NCBI GenBank assembly: GCA_003971905.1
Contig: RSEE01000065.1
Location: 62,001-126,000, forward strand
DNA from: Moniliella sp. 'wahieum'
Taxonomy: Eukaryota > Basidiomycota > Moniliellomycetes > Moniliellales > Moniliellaceae
Direction: 5' to 3'
Length of the DNA stretch: 64,000 nucleotides
Made by a program: the position numbers and the translations under genes. This document shows, in pieces, positions 6,299 through 45,835 of the stretch (its first letter is position 1; the number at the start of each line of letters is the position of its first letter). The notes under the pieces were generated by a model. That model saw only the letters and a list, made by a program, of their open reading frames with translations. It had not been told where the DNA came from and ran no database searches.

Positions 6299-6334
6299 GG
6301 TGACCGGTGACCGGTGACCGGTGATGCATGATGG
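6299..6334. repeat. Heptamer array (ACCGGT-G)3 then ATGCAT-G
   Basis: Three exact 7-bp units of the palindrome ACCGGT plus G are followed in the same register by ATGCAT plus G. About 70 bp downstream (6399-6419) a second degenerate array runs CGATCT-G, AGATCT-G, AAGTCT-G. Both lie between the divergent MFS and IML2 genes. Confidence 0.85.
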
Positions 6335-6592
6335 AGGAGCGAGGATGTGTGCGATGTGCATGCGATCACGTGATCGAGCTGCGATCGGAATCTGAGCGAT
6401 CTGAGATCTGAAGTCTGAAGCCGCACGCGCATCTGACACGTGGCTGAAGGAGCCCAAGCGCCAGCCAGAGCACGACGGAACGAGAAGCGCTGGGCCGACG
6501 GGAGCTTCGTATACGCTCTGCCTGCCTGAGACTGCTGATCCGTGCAGCGAGTTAAAAGTGCTTCCCAGCCAGTGCTTCTGCTGTGGCTGCGC

Positions 6593-9320
6593 ATGCGCCC
6601 CCCCGCCAGCCCCACCTGCTCCGACGCGGCGCCCGCCGCTCCCTCTTCCCTGCCTTCTGTCCGCTCCGCCCGCCTCCGCTCCCTCTTCCGCCCGCCGCCC
6701 GTCCCCCTGCCCTCTTCCTCGCCCTCGCCTCCGTCCCCATCCCCATCCCCATCCCCATCCCCATCCCACACCAGCCGCCGCCGCTTGCGCCCCGCCGCCA
6801 GCGCCCCCGACTTCTCCCGCCCAACCCTCCGTCCGCCTCCCCGGTGGCCCCGCCAGACGAAGCGCTTGCCACTGCCGCCGCCCACGAGTCGGATGGGGAC
6901 GATTCGTCCGCATCCAGCTTTTCCGATGCACGCAGCCTTTCCGATGCACACAACCTCCTTGCGCCCCCGCACGCCCAAGGCCCGAGTCGGAACCGTGGTC
7001 ATCCCGCTGCCCCGTCCGCTCCGCTCTTCTCTCATTCCGTCGTTCCCGGCCTTGGCGGCAGCGCCGACCCAGGGCTGGCCACAAGCGAGACGAGTGCCGC
7101 TCTGTCGGGGTCAGTGACGCCGACAACCGAGTATGGCTTGTCCACCGTCTCCTCCGCCCGATCTGCCATGCCGATCCGGCGGGCGTCCTGTGCGCCTGCG
7201 TGCGCGCACACCAGCCAGCCAGCCTACCGCGACGCCAAGGCGGCTGCCGTAGCCAAGATGACGTGCGCCGATGTGCTCCAGTCGGACGCGGAGCTCAAGG
7301 CAGACATTGAGATGGCACGGAGGGCGGTGCACTTGTTTCTCAACTCGCAGATGGTCGCGGCAGAGCAGCTGATCCAGGCCAGCTCCGAGCGCTTGTACGT
7401 CAGTCTGGGCGCTGCCATCCTAGCCGTTTTTAAGGCGGTCATGGTGAGTCGACGACTAGCCCCCCGCCCCCCCCCCCCCCCCACTCACACACACACACAG
7501 ATAAAGAGAATCTGACCTTCGTACCGTTTCTTGTTTGGCAGACGTTTGACCATCAAGACCTGCTGACCGCTGCCTCGTACTGCAAAGACGCAATGCACAT
7601 TGCCTCGTTGCTGCGCAAACCGTCGAATCTGTTCAGTAACCTGGGGCGCTTTGTGCGTGGAACGGGGCAGTCGGCCGCGACGATGCACAGCATGACACTG
7701 GTCCAGCGACACGCCGAGCTCGTCTTTGCCGAGAGCATGATGCTAAAGGCCGTGATGGGCATCCTGTTGTCCGGGACCTGTTCGCCTTTGTCTCTGAGGC
7801 ACTGAACCTGCGCAGTGTGTATGGGATCTACCGTTCTCTTACCAAATACCTCGAGTGGCTCGACCAGTCATCTTCCAACCCCGCTGTCGTGGGCGAAGCG
7901 GACGACGATTTCCGCTCCGGCGTCCACCTGGGCAATGGGGCGATTAGTCTGGTGTTTGGGCTGCTGCCGGGCAAGGTGCTCAAGGTGGCGGAACTGTTTG
8001 GCTACACGGGCAACTGCGCCGACGGGCTGGCCATCCTAGCCAGATCCGGCGCTGGCACCCGCCTGATACTTCGACCGACACCCTTGCCTCTGCCCCTGCC
8101 GCTGCCCTCGTATCGGGCCTCTCTCCGGACCAAGAGGGCATCCGCCGCGCCGTGTGCGACCTGGCCATCCTCAGCTACCATCTTGTCATCTCGACCTTTA
8201 TGCCGGTCCAGGCCGTCAACATTCCTGCCGCCCAAAGTATACTCGACCACTACTTGGCCCGATACCCCCACTCCGTTTTTTTCTTCTACCTTTCCGGTCG
8301 TCTGCACAGCTGTCTAGCGCAGCCCGGTTTGGCCATCCAGCAATTCGCCCGCGCCCGCGACGTGCAACGCGACATTGTGCCTCTGCGCCACATTTGTATC
8401 TGGGACATGGCGCTCAGCAGCATGAGCCTGTGCGATTGGGCCAGTGCGGGGGGTGCTTTGAGACGCTGCTGGCTGCGTCCAGTTGGTCCCCGGCAGTGTA
8501 CTCGTATGGTCTTGGTGCAACGCTCTTCATGGCGCTAGAGGCACGGGAGAAAGGCGAGACGGTAGTGGAGGCGGATCTTGGGCCGGCGCACGATCCTGGC
8601 GTGCGAGAAGCTGCTGTCCTACCCGACGTGGACGAGCCATCTGTCCACGCGTCCTTGTTAGCGCGGGCCAACGAGTTGATGCTCCGTGCACCGTCGCGGA
8701 TGCAGCGCATTGCTGGCAAGTCGATTCCGCTGGAAAAGTTTGTGCAAAAGAAAGTGGCCAAGCTCGAGGCGCAAGGGTACCTGCTCCTTCCCGCGCTCGA
8801 GCTGAGCTACGTGCTTCATTGCTTGACCAATGCGCCCGCGCGTTCGCTCCTGGGCGCCCAGCTGGCCTTGCTCACAGCTACCTTGGCCCAGCTGCAGACC
8901 TATGCGTCCAATCCGGCCTCCTACCGATCCGGCGCGGCGGGCTACCGTGCCGACTGGTGCTTGGCCCACTTTCTTCACGGCGTTGTGCATCGGTACATTG
9001 CGCATCCGACCGCCCTGGCCGTGGGTACGACCACCTGCCAGCCCGAGTCGGACCAGGCGGCCGAGACGAGTTTGCAGCTGGTGGCGCACGACGGTGCGCA
9101 GTTGACCACCGACGCGTACCTAGTGTACTTTGCCCACTTGGAGCTGGGCCGTCTGTTTGCCGCCCGTGGCGCCTGGCACGACGCACGAACTCACTTCGAC
9201 TTGGTCCTGTCGGGCCAAACGCTGGACCGCGCGCCCCGCAAGGGCAAGTATGCGCTGCAAACCATCTGCTTACTCCAGGCGCACGGCGCACTCGGCTTAC
9301 TTCCCCCGCTGGCCACGTAA
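6593..9320 (+). CDS. IML2: IML2/TTC39-family protein (outer mitochondrial membrane / inclusion clearance)
   Basis: The conserved body starts near 7260 with an SDAELKADIEMARRAVHLF helix. It continues through FAFVSEALNLRSVYGIYRSL (about 7780-7850) and LGNGAISLVFGLLPGKVLKV (about 7930) to a C-terminal tetratricopeptide-like section ending LDRAPRKGKYALQTICLLQAHGALG. Fungal IML2 and animal TTC39 share this layout and length. Yeast Iml2 is reported in clearing protein inclusions linked to lipid droplets. A 98-nt intron (7444-7541, GTGAGT...GGCAG) contains a poly-C and CA run. Frame slips occur near 7775, 8050 and 8445. The N-terminal 220 residues are Pro/Ser/Ala low complexity in shifting frames; the ATG at 6593 is the best start seen but is uncertain. 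Confidence 0.75.
6733..6768 (+). repeat. CCCCAT hexanucleotide microsatellite in the IML2 N-terminus
   Basis: Five to six tandem CCCCAT units. In one frame they read as a Pro-Ile run and in another as Pro-Ser. Because the unit is six bases, length changes would keep frame. This is a likely length-polymorphic site in the disordered N-terminus. Confidence 0.8.
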
Positions 9321-9377
9321 GCCGCGTAGAAACCTGTGTACCGCGCACCGCGTACCGCATCTCCCCACTGACCAAGT

Positions 9378-9450
9378 GACTAGGGACTAGGGACTAGGGA
9401 CTAGGGACTAGGGACTAGGGACTAGGGACTAGGGACTAGGGACTAGGGAC
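9378..9450. repeat. GACTAGG heptamer satellite, about 10 units
   Basis: Ten nearly perfect copies of a 7-bp unit (GACTAGG) lie 57 bp downstream of the IML2 stop. The unit is a near-palindrome (ACTAGG+G), one base from the ACTAGT-G array at 33493. It resembles telomere repeats only superficially, because the period is 7 rather than 6. Confidence 0.95.
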
Positions 9451-9531
9451 CGTGACTGCGGCAAGAGGTTTGCCCTGCTTTGCGTTGCGGTGTGTTGTGC
9501 ATCGTCGGCCCCATCTACAGCCAAGGCGTAG

Positions 9532-9554
9532 AATGTTGAACGTTGAACGTTGAG
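9532..9554. repeat. AACGTT-G heptamer array
   Basis: AATGTT-G is followed by two AACGTT-G units in register. The same unit recurs at 27233-27273 and 27672-27698, so the motif is dispersed rather than local. Confidence 0.8.
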
Positions 9555-9881
9555 ACCACACCACCACTACCCTCACCGCCACATAACCTCTCTCTCTCTC
9601 GTCCCTGTTTCTTTTTTTGGCTTTTACCTCTCTCGGCCGTTTGTTAGGGAGAGGGAATGGATACCCCCTGCATCACCATCGCTTGCCCTAATATCCAGCT
9701 CTTTGGACAAGGTCAGTTGCTATAGCTCCTGCTGTCCAGGGGTGTCGGCTGGGATGGGTGGGGCTGTGCTGGCAATAGGCAACTACTTGCATAGCGCAAC
9801 ACGCGGCCTCGCAATCGCCCTACACGGGTACTGCATTCGATCGTCTTTGTCGGCAGGCAAAGCACGAAGCGGCCAAAAAAA

Positions 9882-9966
9882 CGCCCCACGTGGGACTCGA
9901 ACCCACAACCGTGAGATGGACCTCTGCAGTAAGAGTCTCAAATTCTACCGATTGAAATAGCGAGGC
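9882..9966 (-). tRNA. tRNA-Lys(CTT) with 12-nt intron
   Basis: On the minus strand the acceptor stem GCCTCGC pairs with GTGGGGC, with G73 as discriminator. The anticodon stem TGAGA/TCTCA encloses CTCTTA, a 12-nt intron (9918-9929) and A38, placing the anticodon CTT at 9933-9931 and the intron at the canonical position after base 37. The T-arm is GTGGG-TTCGAGT-CCCAC with a perfect B box. The spliced length is 73 nt. The D-stem is unusual: TTTC/GAAT instead of the common fungal GCTC/GAGC, with a T10-T25 mismatch. A run of seven T (9881-9875) forms the Pol III terminator. Confidence 0.93.
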
Positions 9967-9972
9967 TAGTTG

Positions 9973-10226
9973 TGCTAGAGTGCGACTTGGGAGCACTCGC
10001 GATCCTATGGATCAGCTGCAAAGCAGCCTTCAGACAAGGCGTGAAGGCAAAGTGGTGAGCCACAAGTCTTCAAGCAACGTCTGAAGGGAAGGAGAAAGGA
10101 GAGAGAGAAGGGAGATGGAGCGAGCAGGGCGTGCGCGGCCTGCGAGCGGAACGCTTCCGCTCGGCTAGGCGAGCGTCACCGATCCATGAGGGCCGTGCAG
10201 GAGAACCCTAGCAGTACCCTCTAACA
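9973..10226. mobile_element. Solo LTR (family B), TG...CA, with 5-bp target-site duplication
   Basis: The 254-bp element begins TGCTAGAGTGCG and ends CTCTAACA. It is flanked on both sides by AGTTG (9968-9972 and 10227-10231), a perfect 5-bp target duplication. It shares most of its length with a second copy at 13432-13719. There is no internal coding region, so it is a solo LTR left by recombination. It sits 6 bp from the 5' end of tRNA-Lys, on the upstream side relative to tRNA transcription, where Ty1- and Ty3-like integrases are known to insert. Confidence 0.88.
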
Positions 10227-10231
10227 AGTTG

Positions 10232-10673: not shown

Positions 10674-11940
10674 TCACCAGGGAAGGGGAAAGTGAGGAAC
10701 TGTGGGGCTCGAGGTCGGGGCGATGAAAATGGACTTGGCCGGAATACTCCAAGTCTTGGACAATGCTCTTGGCGCCGCCCAATCCAACGCCCCCACGGCG
10801 GTGGCCACATCGCGCGCGGGCAAACGGCCCTGGGTGGCAATCAACTCGGTCCTAGCCTTGCCTGGCCCATCGCTTGCGAAGCGGTCTGGACAAGACATAT
10901 GGTGCCATCCAACAAGGATTGGGTATCCAGGAAGGCCAGTGCCAAGCTGCCCGTGTGGGCATGCTGATGAACGGTGCGGACAATGGTCTCCATCTCCTTC
11001 ACTGCGTTTGGTGTTCGCGCAGCCGTGCCGAGCCAATGTATAAACACCGTCGGCATCATCCACTCCCGTGCACCTTCAAGCACAGCCCGGTGCAGCACGT
11101 CATACCCATCCATCTTGGCGGACGCCTCAGGAAGGACAAAGACGACGACGGTTTTGTGTTAAAGTGCTCCATCGGCGGCAACTTGGTACCGGTGGGGAAA
11201 GTAAGAACAGGATGCACCGACGCATTGCTCGTCACCGCCGCCAATTCGTCCGGCGCGGCATGGACGGAGCAGGACCATTTTTGCCGTGCGAGCGAAAGGA
11301 TCCTTCGTGGTTTCTTTGCGTCCTGCCTCGGGGAGCTACCGGGTGAAGTGGCAAGCGTATGCGGCGGTGAAGTGTACACGACCAAGACCGAGTGGTCGAT
11401 TCCCATGGACTTCAACCCATTCATCTGCCTCAGCACCTCCCGTGCCGGATACCCAAACGAAGCGCATAGATGCTCGGTCGAGCGAGTGGGGCTGTGGGGC
11501 CGGTCAACAAACACCAACGCAAGCGGCGCCGTATCCCGCTGCCATACGGAATGGGCGATCGCTTTGACAGTGTTGGCATCGCCGTCTTGTTCGTGCTGGG
11601 GGCAAAAAGAAACAGGCGGGGTCAGCTGCCTCGCATTCAATTCGGTCCAACCGGGACAAGTACCGTGTGCGAGTAACTAGTAACTCACCTCCCAAGGATG
11701 GAAGACAACCTGTGTCCCCAACTCGACCGCCGACTCGTTCATCGCGGTCTGGAGAGCGGCCTCGGTGGCCCGTCCCAAATGGCGGGTGAGAAAAAAGACC
11801 CACGTGTTGCGCTGCGCGCGTCGGCTGCCTGCCCCGTCGGGGGGAGGGACGATGCTGCGGGCAAGCCAGCTGGCTCGGCTGGATCGCCGGCGTGGCGGGC
11901 GAGGACAAAGCGGAGGCGGCGGACGGGGGGACAGGGGCAT
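10674..11940 (-). CDS. Hypothetical protein, unrecognised
   Basis: The ATG at 11940 starts a Pro/Arg-rich leader (MPLSPRPPPPLCPRPPRR). A conserved-looking segment, WVFFLTRHLGRATEAALQT, follows and then an intron (donor GTGAGTTACT near 11690, acceptor GCCCCCCAG near 11600). Exon 2 continues with HEQDGDANTVKAIAHSVWQR and LALVFVDRPHSPTRS, then further segments such as PTVFIHWLGTAARTPNAVKE and a C-terminus near 10674. Strong codon-like structure over 1.2 kb, an intron with good borders, and residues that read well across three frames support a real gene with two or three frame slips. There is no membrane segment or catalytic motif I can name. Function unknown. Confidence 0.5.
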
Positions 11941-14900
11941 GAACCGTGGCTAGTGACGGGGGGGAAGCAACCGGGGAGAAGCAACAAGCCCGCCCACCTC
12001 CCCTGGCGGGCCAGACGCCGAGATGGTGCGTTGGTCATGAAGGAAAAGGCCAGGTGCGGACGCAGGCTGTGATGCATCCCGACGGCCATTCTGCAGCGCT
12101 GCAGCGTCGGCCTACAGCACATGCAGGCACTAGCCCGCACTCCCGCCTGCGCCGAGCGGGCCAGGGTGTCGGGACGCGTGACAGTGACGCGTGCCGCGGG
12201 CCGCTGCCGACCGAGAGTGGTCACGCATCATGCACCGCATGGTGGTGTGACGATCGATCATCGCTCATTAAAATTTCGATCGATCGAACATATCATGCAA
12301 CATGTATCATGCACCGGCAGACCGAACCGGGGTAACCGGAAAGCCGTAAAGGAACACCATCATGATTGCATCTCCACCGAGCCTGTGCATGCCACATGTC
12401 ACACGTCCATCTGTGGCAGCTGCATTGCAGGCCCACGCGATGAGATCTGAGGGATCGGAGACCCGCTATCCGAGTATCCAACAGTATCCAATCCGACCGG
12501 TTCCCACCTCTTCTATCCAAGGGGGGGGGTACGGCTATTAGGGCATGCTACAGTAGTTGGCTATTCCTGGCTCTTCTTCCTGTTGTGGAAGCCGTTGGAA
12601 GCCCGACAAGCTGCATCTGGGCCCAGGAAGCGTGGGCGAACATGGACATGGCATGGCATGTGACATGCATGACATGTGACACTGTGATAGATATTGCGAG
12701 TGTGATGCATGTGATCTAAGACTCAGACCCATGGCGTTCGGGGGTTTCTGTTGGGTGTGGTGGCATGTGGCACCACTTGGTGTGATGGCGGATCGGCCAT
12801 GCGCTGGCAAGCGGAACTGGCTATAGAGCTCCGCAACTCGCGGCTCCGGATTGGTTACCGTCGCGCCCTCGTTCCCCTCCTTCTTCCCCTGTTGCACTGA
12901 AGGTTGGACTAGCGTCAGGAGCTTACAAGAAGCTATCTGACTGTTCCCACCCTGCACAGTGCAATCGTCCTTAGCTTGGTAGCGTATATAGCTACTTCTC
13001 AGTTAACGGACAACCGCCGGTTCGGGGCTCTCATTGTTGTGATCGATCATCGCGCTCACCTATTGATCGCCTAGTCTAGTGCTTCGCCCTAGCCCTAATC
13101 TTTCAGTTTCGGGTGAGGGCCTGCGGGAGCTATGTTGGTACGCGTTACGCCTTGAAACTGACCTTGTGAGTGCTGGGTGGCCGCCGGTGGAAGTCATTGA
13201 TCATTGGGTGCGTGGCTGGGCAACTGACTGGGCGCTGGGGAAGGGAACTGAAACGGGAACGGGAGCGGGAACGGGAAACACGGGAACGGGGGACAAAAAA
13301 TCCTAACTGCCACTGCATGTGATGCATGCATGTGACATGTCAGGGAGATGCGGTGTGTTGTGATGCGTGTGATGGGGGCTTTCCCTCGCTTCCCCAGCTT
13401 TCCCTCGTTTTCCCAGCTTTCCCCCCCTTCTTGCTAGAATGCGACTTGGGATCGCTCGTGAGCGCGCGTGAGCCTCGGTGGATCAGCAGCTGCAAAACAG
13501 CCTTCAAACAAGGCATGAATTAGGAAAAGTGGTGAGACGCAAAAGTCTTCAAGCAAAACGTCTGCAGGGAAAAGGAGACAGGAGAGAGAGGAGGGTGATG
13601 GAGCGAGCAGAGGGTGCGCAGCCAGCGAGGGGAACTCTCCCGCCCGGGTGGCGAGCATCGCCGAACAACAAAGGATAATAGCGGAGGGTCGTATCGACGG
13701 ATACCCTCTGATGTCAACACTCAACATACGGGATAAATATCATGTCCTTTTCATACAGTTGTTCAACACACTGATTCATCAATGCCTGTCCTCTCTCCGT
13801 TAAAAATCCTTGCATCCGTAACAGGATATGGAGAAGGGGGAAAGGATAAGGATCACATATTCATCGAGTGGAAACAGAGCGAGGTATATATGCCTCGGAG
13901 AAGAAATGAACATGCGAGCTATATCACACGGAGGGAAAGAGGGAGCACACTCCAAAGGGGGGAAACAGGGTCTAGAACAAATCAAGGGGCCAGACAACTT
14001 GGTGACAAAACGTGATCAAGTGAGTCTGATCCCGACAATCTGGACGGTCTCTTTTCTTTTGAGAATACATACCTCAGGTTCAATGAATCTCTCTATAGTC
14101 TACCCCCTCCGTACCTAAACATGTACCCTCCCCCCATTCACCACGGCGTCAGTAGTGCGGTGTCAGCTATGCGACGGATGCTTTGGGAGAGGCCGAAAGT
14201 GTGGAGCAGCGGTCGCGTAAGACTCCCTCCAGTCTCGGTGCTGCCAGCCACACTTGGCATATTGCCTTTAGTTCCTCGTAAAGGGTATAATCATAGCGCC
14301 ATATCAACATCTTCAGAATAATACATGGAGGAGACACTTGTCTTCCTTCCCACCAAACTATTGGGTTGCCGTCTATTGCTCTGTCTGTGCGCCACGTAGC
14401 ACTAGAGGAGGGAGAGGGAGGGGGATTGAGATAAAAGGGGGCCGAAAATTATGCTATCTCAGTTGGGAGAGAGGGAACATGTGCCTCCAGGTAAAAACGG
14501 ATTTTACCAACGGAGAAAACCTGTGCAGCCGTTATCCGTTTGGTGAATGGAAAAAGGATTTTCCCTTCGAACCTCAACCGTTACTTCCATGCCTGCCAGC
14601 ATAACAGAAGGAATTACCCTTGGACCAAGCCCACTCGATTCGTGCTTGTGGCAAAACAGATGCGAGGGTAAGAGCGTTGTGTTTCATGTATCCCTTCATG
14701 AGGAGGGAAAGACTAAAATGGTGTGCGCAACGTAAGAATGTTGTAGAATGCGGTTGTGGTTCACCGATTTGGATGCTTGTGGAGGGGATGTTCAGATGGA
14801 CGAACGACTCAGGAAAGATCAAACAAAACTATAGGGTAAGTGTGCGTATCTTAATGTCCTGCACCTTAGGGTTAAAAGAGAGAATTGGTGTAGACTGCCA

Positions 14901-20152: not shown

Positions 20153-20767
20153 GATCCGAGAAGACAGGGCCGCGCAGGCAGGGCAGCGAGCGGAGTTCGG
20201 TCGGCACACTGCCCGCCACACCAATGGATTCGCTTCTGAAGCTTGAATCATTCCCACTACATACTCTGCACATGTAGTCAGCTAGTGTATATTCGACGAC
20301 AGTCGATGCGCTCCGTGCCACATCCTCACCAACACCGCCTGGGACGGGTGGTGCTTCACCGCAGAGCGTCCTTCGCTTCCCGCAGCCTCGTTCAGGACGT
20401 TCAGGCCGCGTTGAGCGTGCCCGAGGTGATTCTCTCAACCCCGCTGATCATCGACCAATGCATTACGTTCCGGGGCGATGGTGCAGGCGCGGAACGAGTG
20501 TGATGGGGGGAGGCAGTGCGTAGTATGACTTTCCTCGTATATATTGCGCACCACAGCGGGGCTGCGGCCAATGATAATGAGGCCAACGGCTATCTTATTA
20601 CCGCTTCTTTTGTTGTCCCCTTGGAAGTACCAGACTGTGCTTGCTACGGCATACAAAATGAGACACCAAAATGAGGGGGGCAGGGAGCAAGTAGGATTCG
20701 ATGAAAGAGACCAGATAAGTGTTACATGACAGTGCGTGCAGCCCAACTGCGCGGAAAGCGCCTTTTC
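20153..20767. other. Convergent 3' intergenic region (NCR1 / NOP7)
   Basis: This lies between the stops of two convergent genes. No domain is recognised. Short frames on both strands are not supported as genes. Confidence 0.45.
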
Positions 20768-24821: not shown

Positions 24822-25680
24822 ACCTGCTCGGGCAAGCATCCGGTGGGCGCCTGCTCGTGTGGCCACCCCCTTGGGTTTAGGAGGGAATGGACGGAGAGCA
24901 GCTCGTTTGCAATTCTATACTGCGTCCTACCTACTCCCACAATGGCATCAATGACGAGCATCGGGCAGCCATAGAGGTACTCCAGGCACCTAACGAAGAT
25001 GTGAGCGCACGTGATGTGCACGTGACCCGCACGTGTGCTTGCTTGGCGCATGCTCCGCACGTAAGGCCTTGGCCTAAGGCCGAAGGCCTAAGGTTGCACC
25101 GACTGAGCACTAAGCCTTGGAGCTTAGGCTTAGCGCTAAGCTTAGCAGCGTCGGGTGAGCGCTCAGGCTGAGCTCAGCGTGCCCAGCGCCAAGCGCCAAG
25201 CGGTGGTACAGCAAACGCTTCTGCGCCCTCGAGCGTCGCTTCCTCGTGTCACCGTGACATCTGTCACGCATCACATGCCACATGTCGCTGTGACGTCGAG
25301 GGGGATTGGCCCAGGCTGCCGCTGTGCGCCGCCACGCGCAACGGCCGCAACGCACTGGGGTATTGCCGGATGCCTCGTCTCGCGTCTTGCCTGGTACGGC
25401 GGGCCGCAGTCGCCGTTTTCTGTGTTGTGTCCGTCCCTGTCACGACCATTACTCATCGCAGTCCTAGTCATCGTTTGCTCTTCGCTCCACTCGGTCCTGC
25501 CGTAAGTGTTGGGGACTATCGGTTATCGATTATCGGCCTTGCCACTCTCGACGTCTGCTCTGGTACCATCTTACTAGTTCCTCGGCTCTGCTCAGGCAGA
25601 GCGATCAGGGCCTCAGGCTGGTCGGGAGTTCCAGGTGTGCGTTCTAGTCCCCATCTCTTCCCTGCTGGTGTTTTGAGGCG

Positions 25681-25700
25681 TGTCACATGTCACATGTCAT
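25681..25700. repeat. ACATGT-C heptamer array
   Basis: Two exact ACATGT-C units with partial units on each side. It fits the same palindrome-plus-one rule as the other heptamers. Confidence 0.7.
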
Positions 25701-25792: not shown

Positions 25793-25972
25793 GCGGATGG
25801 GAGGAGGAGGCGGAACAAGGGGAAGGAGAAGGGGAAGAGGAAGGGGAAGGGGAAGAGGAAGGGGAAGGGGAAGAGGAAGAGGGAAAGAGGAAGAGGAAGG
25901 GAAGGGGAAGGGAAGAGAGAGGAAGGGGAAGAGGGGAGGGGAAGGGGAAGGGGAAGGGGAAGGGGTGAGGGC
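25793..25972 (+). repeat. Polypurine tract of GGGGAA/GAGGAA units, about 180 bp
   Basis: The plus strand is almost wholly A and G, built of GGGGAA and GAGGAA hexamers and with mirror symmetry in places. Such homopurine mirror repeats can form intramolecular triplexes. The tract lies downstream of fumarase and about 330 bp past the 3' end of the Rac gene, in transcription terms. Confidence 0.9.
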
Positions 25973-27232: not shown

Positions 27233-27273
27233 GTTCAAGTTGAACGTTGAACATTGAATATTGAACGTTGAGA
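27233..27273. repeat. Mixed heptamer array AACGTT-G / AACATT-G / AATATT-G
   Basis: Successive 7-bp units are AACGTT-G, AACATT-G, AATATT-G and AACGTT-G. The register holds while the central tetramer changes, and two different palindromes (ACGT and ATAT cores) occur in one array. Confidence 0.85.
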
Positions 27274-27671
27274 CTGAGTTCAATATCAAATGGGGGTACT
27301 GAGGTACTGAGTGCTGCGAGGCACAGGTGAGCCGGTGAGGCTGGTGCTGGGTTCCGTTCGAGCTGGGTACTCGGGTACTCGACGCGGTGGGTTACTCTGA
27401 GATCCGACTGCTGGGGATCGTCACGGGTCGGCCGGTGCTGGCGAGGTGCGGGCAAGGGCGGTGGGGATGTGCGGGCCACCAGGCTGGCGCGGTTGCCTCG
27501 GCGCGGGCAGCCCCCGCTCGCGCCCAGAGTGGCGGGGCGGACACAGGCCGTGTGCCGGCTTGACGAGCTCCACAATGCACAATGAGAAAGGATGCATGAT
27601 GTACGCATGGTGTCGATCAGTCATCGATCATATCACCGGTCACCAGTCGCCACTGCCTGGCCGTGTTAAGT

Positions 27672-27698
27672 CAAACGTTGAACGTTGAACGTTTGAAC
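27672..27698. repeat. AACGTT-G heptamer array
   Basis: Three AACGTT palindromes at exact 7-bp spacing, 400 bp from the preceding array. Confidence 0.85.
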
Positions 27699-29927
27699 TC
27701 AACCGGCCTCTATCAGGGAGTCGATAGGCGCTAGGCAAACTATCGTGCGAACAACGGATCGGGCACCAACTTCTCTCTCACATGTCACAGCCGCACCCCA
27801 CCAATCTCCCTCTTCGACTGGATGAACATCGACATCTTACCGCCATCGCTGTCGTCTGTAGGTGGAAAAATAATCCACCATACAGCGGTCGTGTTCGCAC
27901 TCACCACGCAACACCCCTCCTTCGCCACTCTGTTCTATCTGACATCCCTTTTACACAGGCTGATTCTTCTTTCCCTGTGTGGACGGGCTTCCTCTCTACA
28001 TGGAACCTTCCCGCTTCCTCTCCTCTTCTCCCGCCCGAGATCTGGCGAAGTCAGGCAATGAAAGAAGGGGTGAATTCTCTATCATCCATATTATACCCTC
28101 GTCAACGCCTATTGTTTCTTCGCGTGCCCCATCCTTCACCTGTATATCCACATGCTTCCAAAACTGCGACGCCATACGTTATACCAAAACCACCACGGCC
28201 ACTTCACCGTGGTAGAGACGACATCTGATGATCAAGTCCCTACTATTCAAAGGCGCTGCTACTGCTACTGCTATAACTTAACCCATACGATACTGTAAAA
28301 ACCATCCCGGGACAGCCGAGCTTTGGCGCGGAGAGCATGTCAGTTCAAAGCATCCATGAAGAGCCACTGACGGTGCGGTCGGGCACCCATTAGTATAGAA
28401 ACTAAACAACGTAGTGGTGAGCAACACACACACGCCAGAGAAGTGAGGAAAGGCATCGTGAAACACCACACAAGTCGGACCGTCGGTTAGTACAAAACAC
28501 CCAATTTCGCCCACGTCCTCATTCACATATCATATTAGCACCATGTGCCGTCATTTGTCTCCTGTGAGAACAATGGCCACGGACGCTCTTTCGGTATATA
28601 CCAGATGCTTCCTTGTATATGTTTTTGCGGGAAACGTATCACACAGCTGCATGTCACCATTCGAGCGAGAAAAACGATGAAGAGTGACCAGATCGTCAAT
28701 CTTCTTGGCTCATACGCCATGCCGCTTCCCCATCATCTTATCAGTTGAAGTTGTTTGGTGCAACTGGCTAATAACGGCAATTATATCATGACTCTCAGCC
28801 CTGGAACACACTGAAGTGCTGCATGAGATGTTTCCGTCGTTCGACCTACCTACACCCCTTTCGTTGATCCCGGGCAATGTGGAACTCGTGAAAACAAGGA
28901 TCGGCAGGTGTGGCGGCCTCACATATATCTTACATTGGGGTTGTTGAGACGACCTCAAATTCATCTTTTTTATATCAGAGGTCGAATGGAAAAGCCCCAA
29001 ATGTGGACTCCAAGTTGTGTCGCTGTATGGCGGTCTGTTCGGGTCTATACCCGTCGCTCGTCAGCATATGTTCCCCTCAATCACATTTGATGCCCACATC
29101 GGACGGCACTCATGGACATTTTTCAGTCATGTCGTAAAGCCAAACATATGCCTCCAGTCCCAGTGATGAGAGTGTGGCGAAGTGATTATCCATGCCCTAA
29201 AACGCTGAAAACAGCATTCCACACAGTCTGGAAAGGTCTTCCTGGTCCCGGGCATAAAGCAGTGCCATGTGCCTTAGAGCTAACACTACAAGTTAATAAC
29301 AGCTTTCTCTTTTTTGCCGTTTAGGTACCGAATCCTTCTAGTCCATTTAAGCAGTTGCGTATGGATCCGTATAAAACTTATCCTCTCACTATGCCACTTG
29401 GGCCCGGTTGGCTCAGTTCGTAGGTAATATAAGTATGTCACTCGATCAGAACGAACGTGGGGGGACAACATCACAGTGAGAGGTGGACACAGGATCTCCG
29501 ACTGATAGGAAGCCACAGTAAGAGGCTCATAGGGGACTAGCTGGCCAAAATTCCCCCCCTATACACTGGGATCTAAACTCTCTGGCCGGAAATACGTTTG
29601 TATGACACCGTCGACTTGCTAAGAAAATGTGTGTTCGAGAGGCAAGGGACTTTTGGTGATGTGCTCGGAGGTCCGCGGCATGTTTTGAGAGCTTGACTGT
29701 GAATGATGTATACGGACACCCTCACAAAACAACATCCCCTCGTGCGAGAACACCACAAAACCCCTTTTTGTTCACAGCCTACCATACTATACATTGACCG
29801 TATCATCAAAGTTTATCGTCATGGAACCTCCCAGTGCAAAAAGCCTTGTTATGCGGATGGACTGCGTGCTTCACTACAGGCGAGTAGGGTGGAACTTCAT
29901 AGCAAGGTTCCGTTGTCTTCTTCTTCT

Positions 29928-32012: not shown

Positions 32013-32545
32013 GCGGGTGGGTATCGTGTAAGAACGCTTATTTTTTGCGCTGCTGTTGCGTCTGCCTTCGCCTGGCTGTGCATGTGAAGCTCTAGTTCAA
32101 CTCGAAGTTTCAAATGTCAAAGTCCAATGCCAGTCTGATCCGAACAGCGTATCCATACACCCACAGGGCTCTGCTATAGAAGCTGTGCGAGTTTGACTAT
32201 GTACCCGCCTCCGCCCTGGGCCGATCCCGTCCGATCCGGGCAGACCTATGTCAGGTCGGATGTCGCGCCGACTTTCGGCGTTGCGGCTCCTCTGGTCGCT
32301 GCCGCCCATCTCCGATGCTGAGGCGCGCGGGCGGCAGCCTATCATATCTCGACTTCACATCGATCTCACACGCCACGACTCTCCTCGATCCTAAGGAACT
32401 CGGGTCAGATCCCGCATCTTGAAGGTTGAACGTTGAACTAGAGGCAAAAGCCTGAGCCTGAGGGAGGCCAAGGGAGGCTTCAGTATACCAGTCTATCACT
32501 CTCAGCCGGAGGCGCCGCCTGAGGGAGGTCTGAGGATCTGAGGGG

Positions 32546-32630
32546 GCTTGAAGGGCTTGAAGGGCTTGAAGGGCTTAAAGCTTGAAGCTTGAAGCTTGAA
32601 GCTTGAAGCTTGACGCTTGACGCTTGAGGA
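32546..32630. repeat. GGGCTTGAA nonamer run passing into AAGCTT-G heptamers
   Basis: Three 9-bp GGGCTTGAA units change into about five AAGCTT-G heptamers, then two degenerate GACGCTT units. The array shows a shift in unit length within one tract. Confidence 0.9.
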
Positions 32631-32726: not shown

Positions 32727-32778
32727 GCGTGACGGGTGACGGGTGACGGGTAACTAGGTAACCGGTAACCGGTAACTG
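32727..32778. repeat. GGGTGAC run passing into ACCGGT-A heptamers
   Basis: GTGACGG units (three, period 7) give way through a TAACTAG unit to two ACCGGT-A units, all in one 7-bp register. Confidence 0.85.
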
Positions 32779-33145
32779 TTTAATCAATCACCGATCATCG
32801 GATGTACACCGTCACGCGTCACACGTCAGAGAGCCTCAAGACCTCGATCAGTGTCTGGAGAGCAGGGTAGCCGGTAGGGCAGGGTTTGCTGTCGCATTAG
32901 GCCTTTGGCCCTACTTAGGGGCCTTGGTTCAAAAGGGTCACCTGGTCACCCGCACGCTTCAACCTTAGTTGTCCCCCAATTTCCCCACTCAGAAGCTCAG
33001 GCACACCCTGGCACAACGTGTAGCGTTTAATTTTTGTGTCTTTGTTACCAGCCACTATGCCCTACCTCTCTCCCGGACATGCGACCGGCAACTAGAGCGA
33101 CCTCCTGCAAGCCACATTTACTGTCTTTGCAGCTTGAGTACTTGG

Positions 33146-33345
33146 TACTTCAAGCTTCAAGCTTCATGCACTTGAGTGCATTGAATCAAATTGAGAAGAG
33201 TCTTGAAGCTTGAAGCTTGAAGCTTGAAGCTTGAAGCAGGAGTAGCATGGATAGGTAGCATCTTGAATGAGCTTGAGCTTGAGCGCTTGAGCAGGCTTGA
33301 AGCTTGACGCTCAGCTGAGCGCTGAGCGCTGAGGGCTTGAGGCCT
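33146..33345. repeat. Cluster of AAGCTT-C/G and AGCGCT-G heptamers
   Basis: AAGCTT-C units (33150-33170) are followed by AAGCTT-G units in the same strand register (33200-33238), CTTGAG-type words, and two AGCGCT-G units (33317-33332). Confidence 0.85.
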
Positions 33346-33454
33346 GGGGATCTGAGGCTGGCGTTCGCAGACCATATGGCCAGGCTCTTGGTATCTATAC
33401 TCGGGACTGTGAAAGAATCAACAGCTCAGCACTATGATGCATGGTACAACCCTG

Positions 33455-33625
33455 CACATGATGCATGATGCATGTGACGTGTGACGTAGTGACACTAGTG
33501 ACTAGTGACTAGTGACTAGTTCTAGTGATATAGCGGCACTCCCCTATGGGTGATGCATGATGCATGATGTGAGATGCGTGAGATGGGTAATCGATAATCG
33601 ATAATCTCGATTAATCGATAATAGG
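33455..33625. repeat. Cluster of ATGCAT-G, ACTAGT-G and ATCGAT-A heptamers
   Basis: Four separate arrays occur in 170 bp: ATGCAT-G x2 (33460-33474), ACTAGT-G x4 (33493-33520), ATGCAT-G x2 (33552-33567), and ATCGAT-A with reversed partial units (33589-33623). Three different palindromic cores share the same 7-bp rule side by side. Confidence 0.92.
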
Positions 33626-34705
33626 CAATGCGTAGCGCATCATAATGGGGGCGTGTTTACTTTATGTAGTAGCACAAGTAGGGACTCTGATGTATGATGT
33701 ATGAGTATGATACAGATGCGTGATGGGCTACCAGCACGCCAGAGCACGCCGACCATCTGCTGCGTTGTTGCCACTGTTGCAACGCCACGACGCTGCCAGG
33801 GTACTGTTGTTTCACTCCGCCCAGGCAGCCACTTGCAGATGGGATCTACATAATGCAGAGCGTTGTGAAAACTGGTGCTGGAGCACACTTATCGGTAGTA
33901 CTCTGTACCATGTACCCAGGCTGCCAGTACATTTGAGCATGTGAGTACAGCGTACAGAATGCTGAGACTGAGCACGCACCAAGTCCTCCATCCGGTTTCT
34001 ATAGCCGGAACGGATACAGCCTGTGGCCGGTTGCCTGAGGCACAGGCCTGACTGACCTGAAGGCCTGAGATCTGAGACCCGATACAGCTTAATTACCGTC
34101 TAATATTTGATGCAATGTTAGTGATCGAAATGATCAGCGACTGAGCCGCAGTGCCTCCGCAGCGGTCTCCAACTGCTAAGCTGTCTCAACAGCACAAGCA
34201 AACTGGTAGCCGGTAAACGTTAAACTTAACGTTACCCGCGCTCAGCACTTTCCTAAGTACTAAACGTACTAACTCCTAAAAGCGTCCTTGCTTCCATGTA
34301 CGTTAGGCGTGGTAAACGTTAAACATCACGCGGCACGTGTCACACCCGGCTTGTTCGCTCTCGGAGCACTCGTCCCACGTTCCTGTGTCTGCTGGCGGGC
34401 TTGGCTCTGTTTGGCTTGGTTTTGGGCCCTACCATCAGGATGTGCATCATGCATCAACGGTTCGCCTTCACCTTCGCCTTCAAGCTTCAAGCTTCAGCTT
34501 CAGCTTCACCCGCGCGCCCTCGACGCCTCAACAATCTTGTTCCAACAAGCTTTTGGCCCACCACCGGTTTTCCGCCCCTGCGCCTCAGCTTGTCAGCCCC
34601 GCCCGCTGTCTGTTTCCACCATCTTTGAACCTCTTCTTGCTTGCGGCCTCTCGCTCCAACCGCTGGCTTACTCGCCCACCACATACACACGTTACGACGT
34701 GTCCG

Positions 34706-41080: not shown

Positions 41081-42027
41081 CTTAACGGTTGGTGGTGAAC
41101 AACCGCAATGATGGTTCTCCGAGGGACAGTTTGGGGCAGGAGGCCGCAGAGTAGGGTTGCCGTCAGGCTGCGGCATACACTAGCATGGTGCCCTGTTGAT
41201 GGAGCCTTTTTTAACTTCGACTCGCGGCGAACAATATTTAGGGTTCGCTAATTGTAACTTGCAATTGAGAGTTGACAATTGAGAGGCGGGAGTGTGCCAG
41301 AACCGTTGAAGTCAATCAACTACAACGATACAGCTGCAACGCTCTTGGACTCTTTCTCCTTGCTCTTCTGCTGTATCAATTAGGTCTTCTTCACATCTTC
41401 AGGTCCAGTATGGCAACAATGAGACGGCACAAGTACCCATTGTCCCCTCTCTTTTGTTGGGACTTACAGCTGACATCATGCACATCATGGTAGAACTATA
41501 GTAACTACTACTAAAAAGTCGTATATAAAAGGCGCTTCTGTCACATGTCACGGTTGAACGCTCACAGAACAGAGAGGATATATGGTAGCCGTCACGCGCG
41601 TCACGGAAGCACTGAACAGCTCTTTGGAAAAAAAGTGCTTTGCCTCTGCTCCAACCGCATTATCGAATCTGAGCTTTCTGCTGGCCGTAAAAAAGGTAGA
41701 GGGCACGGAGATTCGCCATGACACAAGGTGGGCACACCTCAGACTTCGCAGGACTATTGAAGAACAGATGAGAGAGACGTGAAACGTTGATTTTTCCGTG
41801 ATGGTAACAAGTACATATACAGGTAAAGAGGGGTGGGGGGGGGGTTAGAGGGAAGGGTAAAGTGGGGTCTTCCAAGCAGAAGGGTCAGTGCAGTTGTGCT
41901 GACCGGGCAACCCTGTTGTTGTAACCCAAGCACGGCAAAGATCGGTTTTAACGAGAATAGATGACGGATGGGGAAAGATGCGTGGGGCCGAGGGGGAGGG
42001 GTGGCATCGTGTCTCCAAAATGACCTT
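41081..42027. other. Intergenic region between RPL18 and PTR2
   Basis: It contains the RPL18 5' flank (left) and PTR2 3' flank (right). CAATTG words repeat near 41262-41282. No gene is recognised. Confidence 0.45.
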
Positions 42028-44012
42028 TTACTTTGCTGGCTCGTCGGGGTTGTATGTAGCAGTCGCTTCCAGGGCAGCGTGGTGTGGCTCGATATGCTGA
42101 GTGACGCGTTCCGCATCGCGATCGAGGTTGTTGAGGTTCTCCTCCTGGCGGTCGAGCTTGTAGAACACTGCGCACGAGCGAAAGAGAAAGGTCAGTTTTC
42201 ACCATAACCAAAAAAAGGTAGAGACCACAACGTACGCAACCAGAACACAATACCACCACCGCAGCACAAGCCACTGACGATCGCGTAGTTCTCCACCAGC
42301 TTGGGGTCCTGGCTGATGGGGTTGAAGGCCTCGCCCAGCGCAGAGCTGACGGCCGACATGAACAGTTGGACGGCCATCACAAAGGACTTCATGTTCTTGG
42401 GGGCCTTGTTGAATGCGTACTCGTACGATGGCACGTTGACCAGCAGCTCCGAGGTGGCAATCAGAATGTAAGCACCGGCCTGCTGCCATACATTGATGGG
42501 CGCCTTGGTGTCGCATGTGCCGGCGTAGTAGCCGCAAGCCGACTTCTTGTAGATAAAGTGTTGCGTCACCGCAGCGTAGACCATGGCCAGCGAAGCGACC
42601 TGGAACCCAACCGCGATACGCTGCAGGGCCGAGATGCGGAAGCCCATCCGACGAAGCATCGGGTACAGACCATAGTCGAGGATGGGAACCAAAATCAAAA
42701 TGGCAAGACTGTCCAAGTTTTGGACGATGGAGTTGGGCACACCGTGCAGCTCCATAGTGGCCGCTTGGGAAAGGAGGTTGGACGTCATCTGGTTGTACGC
42801 CAGTTGGTAGATGGGCAGGAGACAGAACACTTGGCAAGCCTTGTACGCCCGGCGCACTTCCAGCACCCATACATCGTCAAACGTCATCCACTTCGGACGC
42901 GTCTCGGGGGTGAAGCGGCTGGGAAGGGCGGAGTCCCAGAAATCATCCGCCTTCATGTTCTTGTACATCCGAACAGGGTTCCACGAGAAGCACGGCTTGG
43001 TGCAGAACCAAAGAATGCGCACGGCCGAAGGCATGAGCGAGCCAGCGGGAGGAGTACGCACATACTTGTTCCTCCACAGCAGCAAGATCGGGAAGCAACT
43101 GAGGAACACGATGGTGGGCAACGTGTACTCGAGCCAGAAACGACATACTTTTCCGAGTAGGCCATGCCAATCTGGCCGACAAGAGCGCCAATGTTGATGA
43201 ACAAGTAAAAGTACATGAAGAGACGGCCGAGCGTCAGGTTGGGTCAATGATGACGCGCTCGCCCGTCTTGGGAATAGTAGTGACCTGCATTTGGTAGCCG
43301 TAACCTGCTCGGCGATCAGGGGACTAACAGATGACTTGAACCAGCCTGTACCCATACCAAACACAATGATGGCAATGACAAGGCAGGCGTAGGCACCGTT
43401 GGGGTTGTCCATGACGGGAGGCAGAGCGCTGACTAAAAGCAAACATGAATGTCAGTCCATGTCCATCGTGAAGCCGAGGCAAACAATGCATACCAATTAG
43501 GATAATATGACCAACCGTCGCAATGCAGAGAGCGATGATGGTGTGTTGAAACGGCCCCAGTACGAGTCGGCAAGGTAAGCACCAAGAAGGGCATGCAGTA
43601 GACCCAGAACGAGTTGAAGGTGGTGATACAAATGCAGCTGTTGACCTTTGCCCAGAGCACCGGACACCGTTCGAAGTGCGGTTGGCACCAGTGCGGCCAC
43701 CGACGCTGTAGGCGGGACGCGGCTTGCTGGATGAGTTGGTAAATGCGTTGGACACACCGTAGTAAGAGAACGCTCAGCCAGCTCGCACATGGCGACACCA
43801 TACGCGCGCCAAGGGACAGGGGCAGGCAGGCGGCGAAGAGTGTCGATCTCCTCCAATGTGGGCTGTGGCGCCTTTTCATCATCCTCGCGCAGAATAATCG
43901 ACAGCAGAGGCCTCTTGGTCAGTGGGAAGGCCCTTCTTCTCGTCAAGAGGGAAGTCCTCGTGGGAGAGGGAGCAACGGCGACATCGTCGGTGTGAGGAAG
44001 GATGGGCGCCAC
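42028..44012 (-). CDS. PTR2: PTR2-type proton-coupled oligopeptide transporter (POT family)
   Basis: An N-terminal acidic leader with QPTLEEIDTLRRLPAPVPWR precedes CELAERS, the start of the first POT motif. Later blocks are VFGMGTGWFKSSVSPLIAEQ, the TM segments WLEYTLPTIVFLSCFPILLL and KACQVFCLLPIYQLAYNQMT, and ending with KAPKNMKSFVMAVQLFMSAV and ENYAIVSGLCCGGG. A 68-nt intron (42168-42235, GTACGT...GCGCAG) joins in frame to a 46-codon last exon beginning FYKLDRQEENLNNLDRD. Members import di- and tripeptides across the plasma membrane using the proton gradient. Slips around 43240, 43500 and 43740 break the frame. The start is unclear: the first in-frame codon at 44012 is GTG, so the true ATG lies upstream, possibly beyond an intron. 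Confidence 0.88.
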
Positions 44013-45360
44013 TGGGCGTACGCCAGCTGGTCGTCAGCAGCCACTGTATGGGGGGGGAGTCAGCTCAGAGTCGATTAAAGGAAGGGGGAGGATGGAGCGT
44101 ACGGTCGGTGTTGGGCATCGTGGTGGGGAGGAGGGAGACAAAGAGGGAAGTGAGCAAGATTTCCGGGGGCTTTGTATGGTACCCTGGTTGGTCTGATGAT
44201 CTGGACAACTCAATTACTGGCAGCTGGCCGAGCGAAGCAGCAGCGAGTGGATGCACCGCATAAGGAGAGCGCTGCGGCTTGCCGCCTGGGCGATACACTG
44301 AGGATATGAGCACTGGCAGCACGCGACAACGCTCCTAGTCGAACATGTGGTTTTCGCGCGGGGAGATAGCGGGCTGTCTTCCATCCACATCCGCACAGCG
44401 CTAGCCTTGCCCCCATCATTACCTGGGGAGCTTCTTCCGTATCGAGGGACGCCTAACACAGGAACGAGCGATAGGAGCACGACTGGCCCCCCTGCCGCCT
44501 ATTGCCCGGTGTATGTCCCCCGGCAGAGTGGTGGGATCCACAGGGGCGTCGTTCATGCAGCGGCTGAGCGCTGAAGCTCTGAGGCCCGAGGCTCAGGCGT
44601 GCTCGCTTCAGGCAATCGCGTGCAACACTGCGCCTATGCCTGCAACCGACAGAGGCTGGGCGCGCTTCCAGCTTCAGGGACCGTAGGGGACACTCGGCCT
44701 TCGCGAGTTCGGACAGGGTACTGCAAACACAGTGCCCCTGGCGGCCTTTGTGCCGATTCAGCCGCTGAGCTCTGCTGAGCTGAGCGCTGCGATATCTGAG
44801 GCAGCCCAAGCCCAGAAAAAACGGCATAGCAAATCGTTCCTGCCCGCCACCTCCCGGAGGCACGGCGCCGCTCTCGAGCCGAGTGGGTCTTGCGGGGCGA
44901 GCCCGGCGAAATGGCGGCGATTGCCCGGTGGGCTATGATAGAGCTGCCACAGGCTGCCACCTAGTGCGGGTCGTCTGGGCTAAGCGCTTAAACCCTTGGA
45001 CGTGCTGTGGATAGCTGCCAGAGCGTGCCTGAACGCTCATCAGCGGCTGGGCCTCAGGCCCCGAGCCCTCAGCGCCTCTGCGCTCAGCCAGGGCAGTGGA
45101 TGGCTGTTACATGTGGCACTATGGATGTGCGATGCCAAGAACGTGTCGGACTCAGATGGGATGTGTTCGTTCAGCCGGTATCAAGGCAGTGTCAGCCATG
45201 TCAGCACACTCAGCTATTTAGCCGTCCATCCGGGCTATATGTAGCCTGTGCCCTCGTGCCGGACCATTACATGCCGTCGATAAGAACCGACGCGGGAGTG
45301 TGCGGCTTCGCAGCACGCCAGTTGGCGCCACCAGCCGCAATCAGTGTTAAGTACTAAGTG

Positions 45361-45535
45361 CGTTGCATGCACTGTAGAGTACTGAGTGGCTGAGGGCTGA
45401 GTACTGAGACAAAGGCACGGACGGTACTGATGATCTATGAGTTTGATCAGTAAACCTCAGCGCTGAGCCGCACTGAGTACTGAGTGAGTACTTCGTACTC
45501 AGCCTGAGTATTGAGTCAGTACTGAGCTGCCCAGG
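45361..45535. repeat. AGTACT-G heptamer words, scattered
   Basis: GAGTACTGAG words recur at least six times, sometimes in 7- or 11-bp spacing, with inverted partners such as the word GTACTCAG near 45492-45500. It is a degenerate array with core GTAC. Confidence 0.7.
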
Positions 45536-45794
45536 CAGACCAGGCAGACCCACTGCTGGTCCACAGGCTGGCTTCTTCTAGCCCACCGCCACCACTGCCG
45601 CCGAAAGCCCCGTCGGGCCAAACTAGTGGCACCGACATGCGCGTTTGTTAATAGCTCCAAACAGTTTGCTATTTAGTCAGGCTAGAACTGCAACACGGAA
45701 CTACCCGCACCTAACCGGCGCTTCGGCCGGTCCGACAAACTCGACTTGGGCACACCAGGGCACTCCGCACTACGCCCTGCGTTTTTACGCTTTG

Positions 45795-45835
45795 AGCTTG
45801 ACTTGAAGCTTGAAGCTAGCTTGATAAGCTTGATA
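45795..45835. repeat. AAGCTT-G heptamer cluster
   Basis: Two AAGCTT-G words, an AGCTAGCT palindrome, and a further AAGCTT-G followed by ATATC-TG. Core AGCT in degenerate 7-bp order. Confidence 0.7.

Follow-up and report, generated by a model that had tools for sequence, protein, structure and literature searches.

Palindromic heptamer arrays in a probably fungal genome read as stacks of a 7-bp insertion at TNA triplets

Tandem repeats with a nearly self-complementary unit, such as CNG triplets and other slippage microsatellites, form arrays that fold as hairpins, and heptamer repeats of fixed sequence are known from cyanobacteria (STRR) and, reportedly, from Beggiatoaceae, where the motif is TAACTGA. 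Breaks made by RAG leave P-nucleotides, short inverted copies of the ends, at their joints. Palindromic P-nucleotide footprints from hairpin opening are reported with Ac/Ds in Candida albicans (PMC5873905), and hairpin-capped ends with Kat1, a domesticated hAT transposase of Kluyveromyces lactis (PMC4763223). Here, we analysed period-7 arrays in a 64-kb window (C65:62001–126000; coordinates without a prefix count from its first base) of a genome of 69,493,810 bases in 223 contigs. Their unit—a palindromic tetramer set between TNA triplets—obeys a rule while its sequence is free. The source organism is probably a fungus, judging by sequence matches to Chitin_synth_2 and, in the window, to NPC1, Pescadillo, and Iml2/TPR39.

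An earlier note on this window had claimed that its heptamer arrays follow a single rule with free sequence, namely a hexamer palindrome, A-NNNN-T, plus one spacer base. This was borne out: 47 chains in the window hold at least one palindromic core, and of the 16 tetramers possible these cores, bounded by A and T, use 13. The window has 25 exact period-7 runs of 15 bp or more, 15 of which were self-complementary at six of seven positions (5.2 expected from letter-shuffled units), and 47 of 86 such runs were so in a 200-kb subset (L009–L028) picked blind to repeat content (16.2 expected), giving the predicted excess over shuffled units. In this subset, no comparable excess was seen at periods 2–6 and 8–20, and palindromic hexamers of period 6 were not enriched (2 versus 2.1 expected). 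The observation is confirmed genome-wide: TGACCGGTGACC has 1,328 matches (680 + 648) in the whole genome against 51 (25 + 26) for its reversed control, the filler-swapped, non-inverted TGACCCCTGACC has 16 (10 + 6; reversed control, 16 + 12 = 28), and a CCGG 21-mer, ACCGGTGACCGGTGACCGGTG, occurs in 79 copies (42 + 37) on many contigs (reversed pattern, 0).

The counts below refer to a main sample of 334 kb, comprising the window and 27 segments, each of 10 kb and placed at round coordinates (L009–L028, L029–L033, and L034–L035), and covering ~0.5% of this one genome; expectations come from order-3 Markov resamples made separately for each sequence. Between TNA anchors 4 bp apart and sharing the same middle base x, 319 of 583 cores were palindromic, with 10.0 palindromic cores expected. 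Gaps of 3, 5, and 6 gave 76, 28, and 11 palindromic cores (36.8, 10.8, and 2.9 expected; a 2- to 4-fold excess), and the remaining gap lengths did not exceed a few-fold either, with the exception of 11, which equals two units. Palindromic tetramers lay between TGA, TCA, TAA, and TTA triplets 138, 133, 34, and 14 times (4.8, 6.0, 0.0, and 0.4 expected), between AGT triplets never, and between the next-ranked anchors ATG, CAT, and ATC 29, 24, and 17 times (4.6, 4.4, and 2.4 expected), with 17, 18, and 9 of these overlapping a TNA unit. Across a palindromic core, x was the same in 319 cases, complementary in 26, and other in 40 (10.0, 10.4, and 12.3 expected). The spacer, described earlier as usually G or A, can be any base, nearly always equal on both sides of the core; the bias noted was partly one of strand choice. 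Two of the earlier examples did not stand. The supposed near-match at 9378 belongs to GACTAGG (10.4 copies, 9378–9450), which exceeds every other exact period-7 array of the window in length and breaks the rule, and at 34061 there is no clean GGCC unit but a rule site with the core GATC (34066–34075). The GACTAGG array may be an ordinary heptamer array or the product of another process.

The elementary object is 12 bp long and exists in a right-hand form, TNA-n1n2-n2'n1'-TNA-n1n2, and a left-hand form, m2m1-TNA-m1'm2'-m2m1-TNA, in which m2m1 and n1n2 are the left- and right-flank dinucleotides and a prime marks the complement. Both contain a 5-bp duplication and a 2-nt inverted copy, a net gain of 7 bp. 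At TNA, we counted 194 right-hand and 171 left-hand 12-mers (0.9 and 0.8 expected), as against 0 and 1 at ANT (0.4 and 0.9), 3 and 3 at CNG (2.4 and 2.0), 1 and 6 at GNC (2.4 and 2.0), and 100 and 104 at non-symmetric triplets (20 and 24). Plain 5-bp duplications, TNAnnTNAnn, were at expectation (11 versus 11.5), and a 1-nt filler, found 20 times at TNA (4.0 expected), had a similar ratio at CNG (53 versus 8.4) and GNC (49 versus 10.2), arguing that the 2-nt inverted copy belongs to the TNA event. Products with inverted x numbered 5 (1.0 expected) against the 194 with the same x, and both fillers were kept (period 11) in a single case at TNA. Duplications around TNA at periods 8 and 9 were also in excess (53 and 89 versus 9), partly with an inverted dinucleotide; the 9-bp form fits a 7-bp duplication with a 2-nt filler (12 and 19 at TNA versus 0.0), and we do not rely on it because it is present at other anchors as well (28 and 23).

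Most often, a site has a single core. Among 338 two-anchor chains, 159 have a palindromic core, where 149.8 chains of any core are expected. Period-7 runs with a rule core peak in length at 12 bp (80 runs) and 19 bp (17), with seven at 26–28 bp, and the longest pure rule run spans 50 bp. Their commonest start and end phases, (5,2) in 45 runs and (0,4) in 41, together hold 86 of 256 runs, out of 49 possible phase pairs, and match the two 12-bp forms. At the 158 single-core sites whose flanks were long enough, the two-base flanks continued the repeat in full on the left only (28), the right only (33), or both sides (22); 72 showed partial continuation and 3 none at either base on either side. 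The flanks of 77 single-unit sites held no conserved base, so these sites are not mobile-element copies, in agreement with the claim that the arrays are independent tracts.

Arrays follow the grammar m2m1-TNA-(m1'm2'm2m1-TNA)a-(n1n2n2'n1'-TNA)b-n1n2, each block copying the flank on its own side. If every insertion takes its copy from a flanking dinucleotide, arrays should collapse to one TNA; this holds for 120 of 159 chains with one core, 28 of 53 with two, and 9 of 27 with more (20.4, 3.3, and 0.7 expected with random flanks). All-palindromic arrays of more than one core type number 11, each with exactly two types, and nine collapse (0.045 expected). At held-out loci from which the rule had not been derived (L001–L003, the tail of L004, L005, L006, and L008; 18,659 bases), chosen for holding CCGG arrays, 30 of 50 chains collapse versus 4.74 expected. 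The window array at 6299–6333, one of the nine two-type arrays, collapses to GGTGATG. Core changes in register within an array, as previously described, were found at 6301–6331, 27241–27271, and 52042–52058; at 27239–27271, we read the ACAT followed by a matching ATAT as a point change copied afterwards. Stacking of insertions at one TxA accounts for the constant x, for cores that are palindromic yet free, for in-register core changes, and for the match between two cores and their flanks. That arrays are stacks of one elementary insertion is supported by these counts, and we hold it with high confidence. The rule sites of the window are given below, each with the strand sign (.); lower case marks a non-palindromic core.

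427..436 (.): TGA-GATC-TGA, single core, flanks untemplated
3232..3241 (.): TGA-ACGT-TGA, single core
6299..6333 (.): GG-TGA-(CCGG TGA)x3-(TGCA TGA)-TG, two blocks, left templated by GG, right by TG
6400..6418 (.): TC-TGA-GATC-TGA-agtc-TGA
9535..9553 (.): GT-TGA-(ACGT TGA)x2, left-templated
11672..11685 (.): AG-TAA-CTAG-TAA-CT
12441..12450 (.): TGA-GATC-TGA
12670..12681 (.): TGA-CATG-TGA-CA, right-templated
20237..20246 (.): TGA-AGCT-TGA
25523..25534 (.): TTA-TCGA-TTA-TC, right-templated
25681..25699 (.): TG-TCA-(CATG TCA)x2, left-templated
27239..27271 (.): GT-TGA-ACGT-TGA-acat-TGA-ATAT-TGA-ACGT-TGA, changed half (AT), then matching palindrome ATAT
27621..27630 (.): TCA-TCGA-TCA
27633..27644 (.): TCA-CCGG-TCA-CC, right-templated
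27677..27690 (.): GT-TGA-ACGT-TGA-AC
27778..27789 (.): TCA-CATG-TCA-CA, right-templated
32420..32438 (.): TGA-aggt-TGA-ACGT-TGA-AC
32581..32627 (.): CT-TGA-(AGCT TGA)x4-(cgct TGA)x2
32757..32775 (.): GG-TAA-(CCGG TAA)x2, left-templated
32810..32828 (.): CG-TCA-CGCG-TCA-cacg-TCA
33148..33166 (.): CT-TCA-(AGCT TCA)x2, left-templated
33202..33236 (.): CT-TGA-(AGCT TGA)x4-AG, folds into a TGA-triloop hairpin
33296..33307 (.): CT-TGA-AGCT-TGA, left-templated
33314..33332 (.): GC-TGA-(GCGC TGA)x2, left-templated
33457..33470 (.): CA-TGA-TGCA-TGA-TG
33497..33517 (.): AG-TGA-(CTAG TGA)x2-CT
33551..33569 (.): TGA-(TGCA TGA)x2-TG, right-templated
33588..33606 (.): TAA-(TCGA TAA)x2-TC, right-templated
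33612..33621 (.): TAA-TCGA-TAA
34066..34077 (.): TGA-GATC-TGA-GA, right-templated
34214..34225 (.): TAA-ACGT-TAA-AC, right-templated
34254..34263 (.): TAA-GTAC-TAA
34313..34324 (.): TAA-ACGT-TAA-AC, right-templated
34445..34456 (.): CA-TCA-TGCA-TCA, left-templated
34478..34496 (.): CT-TCA-(AGCT TCA)x2, left-templated
41539..41550 (.): TG-TCA-CATG-TCA, left-templated
44563..44574 (.): GC-TGA-GCGC-TGA, left-templated
45348..45359 (.): TAA-GTAC-TAA-GT, right-templated
45391..45407 (.): TGA-gggc-TGA-GTAC-TGA
45472..45485 (.): AC-TGA-GTAC-TGA-GT
45802..45815 (.): CT-TGA-AGCT-TGA-AG
45969..45980 (.): CT-TCA-AGCT-TCA, left-templated
46423..46434 (.): TTA-CTAG-TTA-CT, right-templated
46782..46793 (.): TCA-ACGT-TCA-AC, right-templated
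48372..48390 (.): TGA-aagt-TGA-AGCT-TGA-AG
52040..52060 (.): CA-TCA-TGCA-TCA-GGCC-TCA-GG, two blocks, collapses to one TCA
58636..58645 (.): TCA-TCGA-TCA

An insertion can be compared with its empty site in L009 and L019, diverged paralogues of ~67% identity over 640 bases. L019 carries the empty site TTCTGTTGATGCCTG (TTCTGTTGA|TGCCTG) and L009 the filled one, TTCTGTTGA-ACGTTGA-TGCCTG; the filled site parses as GTTGA + AC + GTTGA, and the empty site (GTTGA|TG) holds no earlier palindrome. With the duplicates L004 and L007 excluded, 224 alignments of paralogues, in which 28,053 bases were aligned, gave eight distinct 7-bp indels, two of which are exact rule events. A third (L013 versus L032) would, on our reading of the sequence, fit the rule if one base changed later; four do not fit, and the remaining one is taken up below. 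By eye, no 7-bp rule event was seen in 11 aligned sequences of a 250-bp dispersed family (three of the four fetched copies picked for length); one 9-bp duplication around TCA, in L037, could be a plain tandem duplication.

Scar positions number 271 among 12,642 TNA sites, positions within long arrays being counted more than once, and extrapolation from these gives an estimated genome total of the order of 50,000 scars. Within open reading frames (ORFs) of at least 300 codons, 13 of 2,489 TNA sites carry a scar versus 258 of 10,153 outside (5.2 versus 25.4 per 1,000), the corresponding rates being 1.9 versus 23.2 for 400 codons and 7.0 versus 30.6 for 200; per TNA, scars are 4- to 12-fold rarer inside long ORFs. 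TGA and TCA are struck at roughly double the rate of TAA and TTA, and by n1n2, AG and TG are struck most (24.3 and 23.2 per 1,000) and AA, AT, and TA least (0.8, 2.7, and 0.0).

In this grammar, each event turns m2m1-TxA-n1n2, with a gain of 7 bp, into m2m1-TxA-n1n2-n2'n1'-TxA-n1n2 or m2m1-TxA-m1'm2'-m2m1-TxA-n1n2, duplicating 5 bp and copying the two bases at the non-TxA end as their reverse complement between the copies; repeated events at the same TxA build an array. In the mechanism we propose for it, a staggered break centred on TNA would have its ends capped by hairpins, which, opened 2 nt off the tip, would yield self-complementary 4-nt 3' overhangs, one being kept and filled while its partner is trimmed, and the ends would then be joined. 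If the stagger is one of 7 nt on NNTNANN and each hairpin is opened in this way, both observed forms would be produced at equal chance; alternatively, a 5-nt stagger, TNANN, with a single P addition would give identical letters. The chemistry would be that of P-nucleotides at hAT-transposon (Ac/Ds, Kat1) or RAG breaks, and the strong TNA preference together with the near absence of inverted x favours a putative TNA-recognising enzyme. Stacked insertions made by repair of hairpin-capped TNA breaks are, as a whole, the best explanation, and we lean slightly towards it; on the hairpin-break step by itself, our judgement is evenly poised. More tentatively still, and with some doubt, we suggest that a domesticated or cryptic transposase, or another hairpin-forming nuclease, specific for TNA and active in this fungal lineage, may break chromosomes genome-wide, its fixed 2-nt hairpin opening having written the extrapolated ~50,000 scars of 7 bp with units composed from their own flanks.

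Several observations weigh against this account. The TNA preference is very strong, and stands alongside a weaker general excess of period-7 repeats; it is not total, since the right-hand 12-mer also occurs 104 times at the non-TNA triplets taken together (25 expected). Of these 104, 72 do not touch a TNA unit, and they are scattered among many triplets, none of which has more than eight. Collapse fails in 39 of 159 single-core, 25 of 53 two-core, 18 of 27 longer, and 20 of 50 held-out chains, and the array at L003:1843–1880 (CGCG CGCG CATG CGCG catt) violates the strict grammar. Of the 39 single-core failures, 36 agree with a flank at one base out of two, on one side or both, as decay would give. 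Multi-core chains (80 of 239) exceed what independent hits at ~2% of TNA sites (271/12,642) would produce; they are too common for independent events, so re-targeting or slippage adds to arrays. Just two of the eight paralogue indels are exact, and both come from L009/L019; the empty site matches closely for one of them and is more diverged for the second; the L038 indel, TGTCC-CA-TGTCC, has the inverted dinucleotide, but TCC replaces TNA. P length is variable in Ac/Ds footprints, and excision footprints would be expected to show variable P length and small deletions, whereas a 2-nt filler dominates here. Inverted-repeat searches of L001–L039 and the window (<1% of the genome) found array matches and scattered pairs, among which no transposon with a matching duplication was recognised. 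Genome-wide Pfam searches for hAT, PIF/Harbinger, MULE, and P-element transposases gave no matches, two of the four being without a positive control.

As to candidate sources, no terminal inverted repeat element with a TNA-type duplication was found with exact 11-bp arms (L001–L035 and the window), and none was recognised among the matches listed for duplications of 4–9 bp and arms of 8–10 bp (L001–L039 and the window), a search that left out 3-bp duplications and, with the shortest arms, 4- or 5-bp ones. Seventeen matches with 9-bp arms had a 5-bp duplication; seven are the window's own AGCTT arrays, and two have a duplication beginning with TNA (L028:1983–6033, TGAGG; L033:1436–1718, TGAGC), which may be chance. 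Elements resembling long terminal repeats (LTRs) were rejected as a source, their 5-bp duplications (AGTTG, TCTAG, and ACCAC, by eye) not being TNA. A 3.6-kb candidate DNA transposon at L021:1295–4940, with 13-bp inverted ends and a possible TTGGA duplication, is likewise not TNA-type. The genome holds one match (27.7 bits) to DRMBL, which we take to be the domain of SNM1/Pso2/Artemis.

The 12-mers might also arise with no break at all, through two-step template switching at a replication fork, a micro form of small inverted triplication in which synthesis would run past TNA-n1n2, go back 2 nt (n2'n1'), return at T, and recopy TNA-n1n2. The product does show the order duplicate, inverted, duplicate (DUP/IN/DUP), and rad27 yeast yields small inverted triplications of ~150 bp with 6-bp junctions, modelled through 3' flaps that either anneal or fold back (PMC13334657). 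However, CNG, GNC, and ANT would permit the same return and yet show 0–6 occurrences, leaving TNA unexplained; turns of 2 nt greatly predominate; and a reverse copy that ran further would include the complement of x, found five times where 194 12-mers keep x, although mismatch repair could mask this. We consider template switching unlikely, if still a serious contender. The earlier note had instead named hairpin slippage as the generator, self-complementary heptamers expanding as slipped strands fold. Its claim that the arrays can fold on themselves holds, four rule arrays folding better than dinucleotide shuffles (z −2.9 to −4.7), and pure rule runs do reach 50 bp. As an origin, slippage is rejected, and we rate it improbable: the rule is already present in single units, which are the commonest form; the one clean empty site lacks a palindrome, so that the unit did not pre-exist there; period-6 palindromic hexamers, expected to be better folders, are not enriched; array ends fall in preferred rather than arbitrary phases; cores and core changes track the flanking dinucleotides; and the TNA preference is left without an account. 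Slippage may nonetheless have lengthened arrays at a later step.

Selection for the binding sites of a dimeric protein reading A....T hexamers would agree with scars lying mostly outside long ORFs, but the core is free in sequence and follows whatever flanks TNA, no base is conserved beyond the 12-mer, and it is not evident why a binding protein should preserve dinucleotides that are arbitrary but complementary; we regard this as very improbable. An assembly or sequencing artefact, which the use of a single assembly might suggest, is scarcely credible at all, given that the rarity of scars in long ORFs fits purifying selection instead and that the 79 copies of the CCGG 21-mer are spread over many contigs.

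Other features of the window and sample include a ~255-bp repeat with TG...CA ends (window 9972–10226, L023:6099–6354, and L021:7588–7824) that looks like solo LTRs; two copies have 5-bp duplications by eye (AGTTG and TCTAG), and the window copy adjoins a tRNA match at 9882–9966. A Copia-type reverse transcriptase ORF (RVT_2, E 5.6e-42) lies at 61756–63279, an AAGGGG array of 24 copies (81% match) at 25817–25965, and a member of a dispersed family at 47710–47960; this family has 489 first-look candidates genome-wide, 40 of which were scored, and its copies often differ in length by 3 bases, as if coding. Chitin_synth_2 has 87 matches on many contigs (best E 1.2e-211), several of them reading through with in-frame stops that may be introns or pseudogenes, and the family was also matched in 4 of 14 control genomes.

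If the proposed origin is true, the arrays would form a tandem-repeat class with a generative grammar instead of a motif, and the signature (TNA, 5 + 2 bp) would be specific enough to seek the enzyme directly. Every scar would preserve one past event together with the choice of flank copied, making the genome a dense record of breaks. Palindromic microsatellites could then originate without slippage, and the birth of new ones becomes testable.

Searches of the open-access literature gave no paper that we recognised as describing the TNA/7-bp palindrome rule, and the scars point to a sequence-specific mutational process for which we found no described counterpart. They resemble hAT (Ac/Ds, Kat1) P-nucleotide footprints in that the joint bears a short inverted copy of the end (PMC5873905, PMC4763223), and the target duplication with inverted end copy that marks an excision footprint is seen in the 194 and 171 12-mers and one clean empty site. 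For Kat1, flank ends are hairpin-capped and the hAT duplication is 8 bp (PMC4763223), whereas here the duplication is 5 bp with TNA at one end. Unlike in hAT systems, P is mostly 2 nt, events stack into arrays at very many sites, and no source transposon was found in the searches of L001–L039 and the window or by Pfam genome-wide. The DUP/IN/DUP order is shared with the small inverted triplications of rad27/FEN1, which measure ~150 bp (PMC13334657) as against 5/2/5 bp here, with a TNA preference. An inverted copy running through TNA and carrying the segment's complement, as a triplication would have, is nearly absent from the sample (inverted x in 5 versus 194). With CNG repeats, the arrays share a near-self-complementary unit and hairpin folding; unlike in slippage microsatellites, the unit matches the flanking dinucleotides, single units dominate, and arrays end in a preferred phase. 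Finally, like the STRR and TAACTGA heptamers, they are 7-bp direct repeats at many intergenic sites, but the motif is constant in those, whereas here nothing beyond TNA and the palindrome rule is constant.

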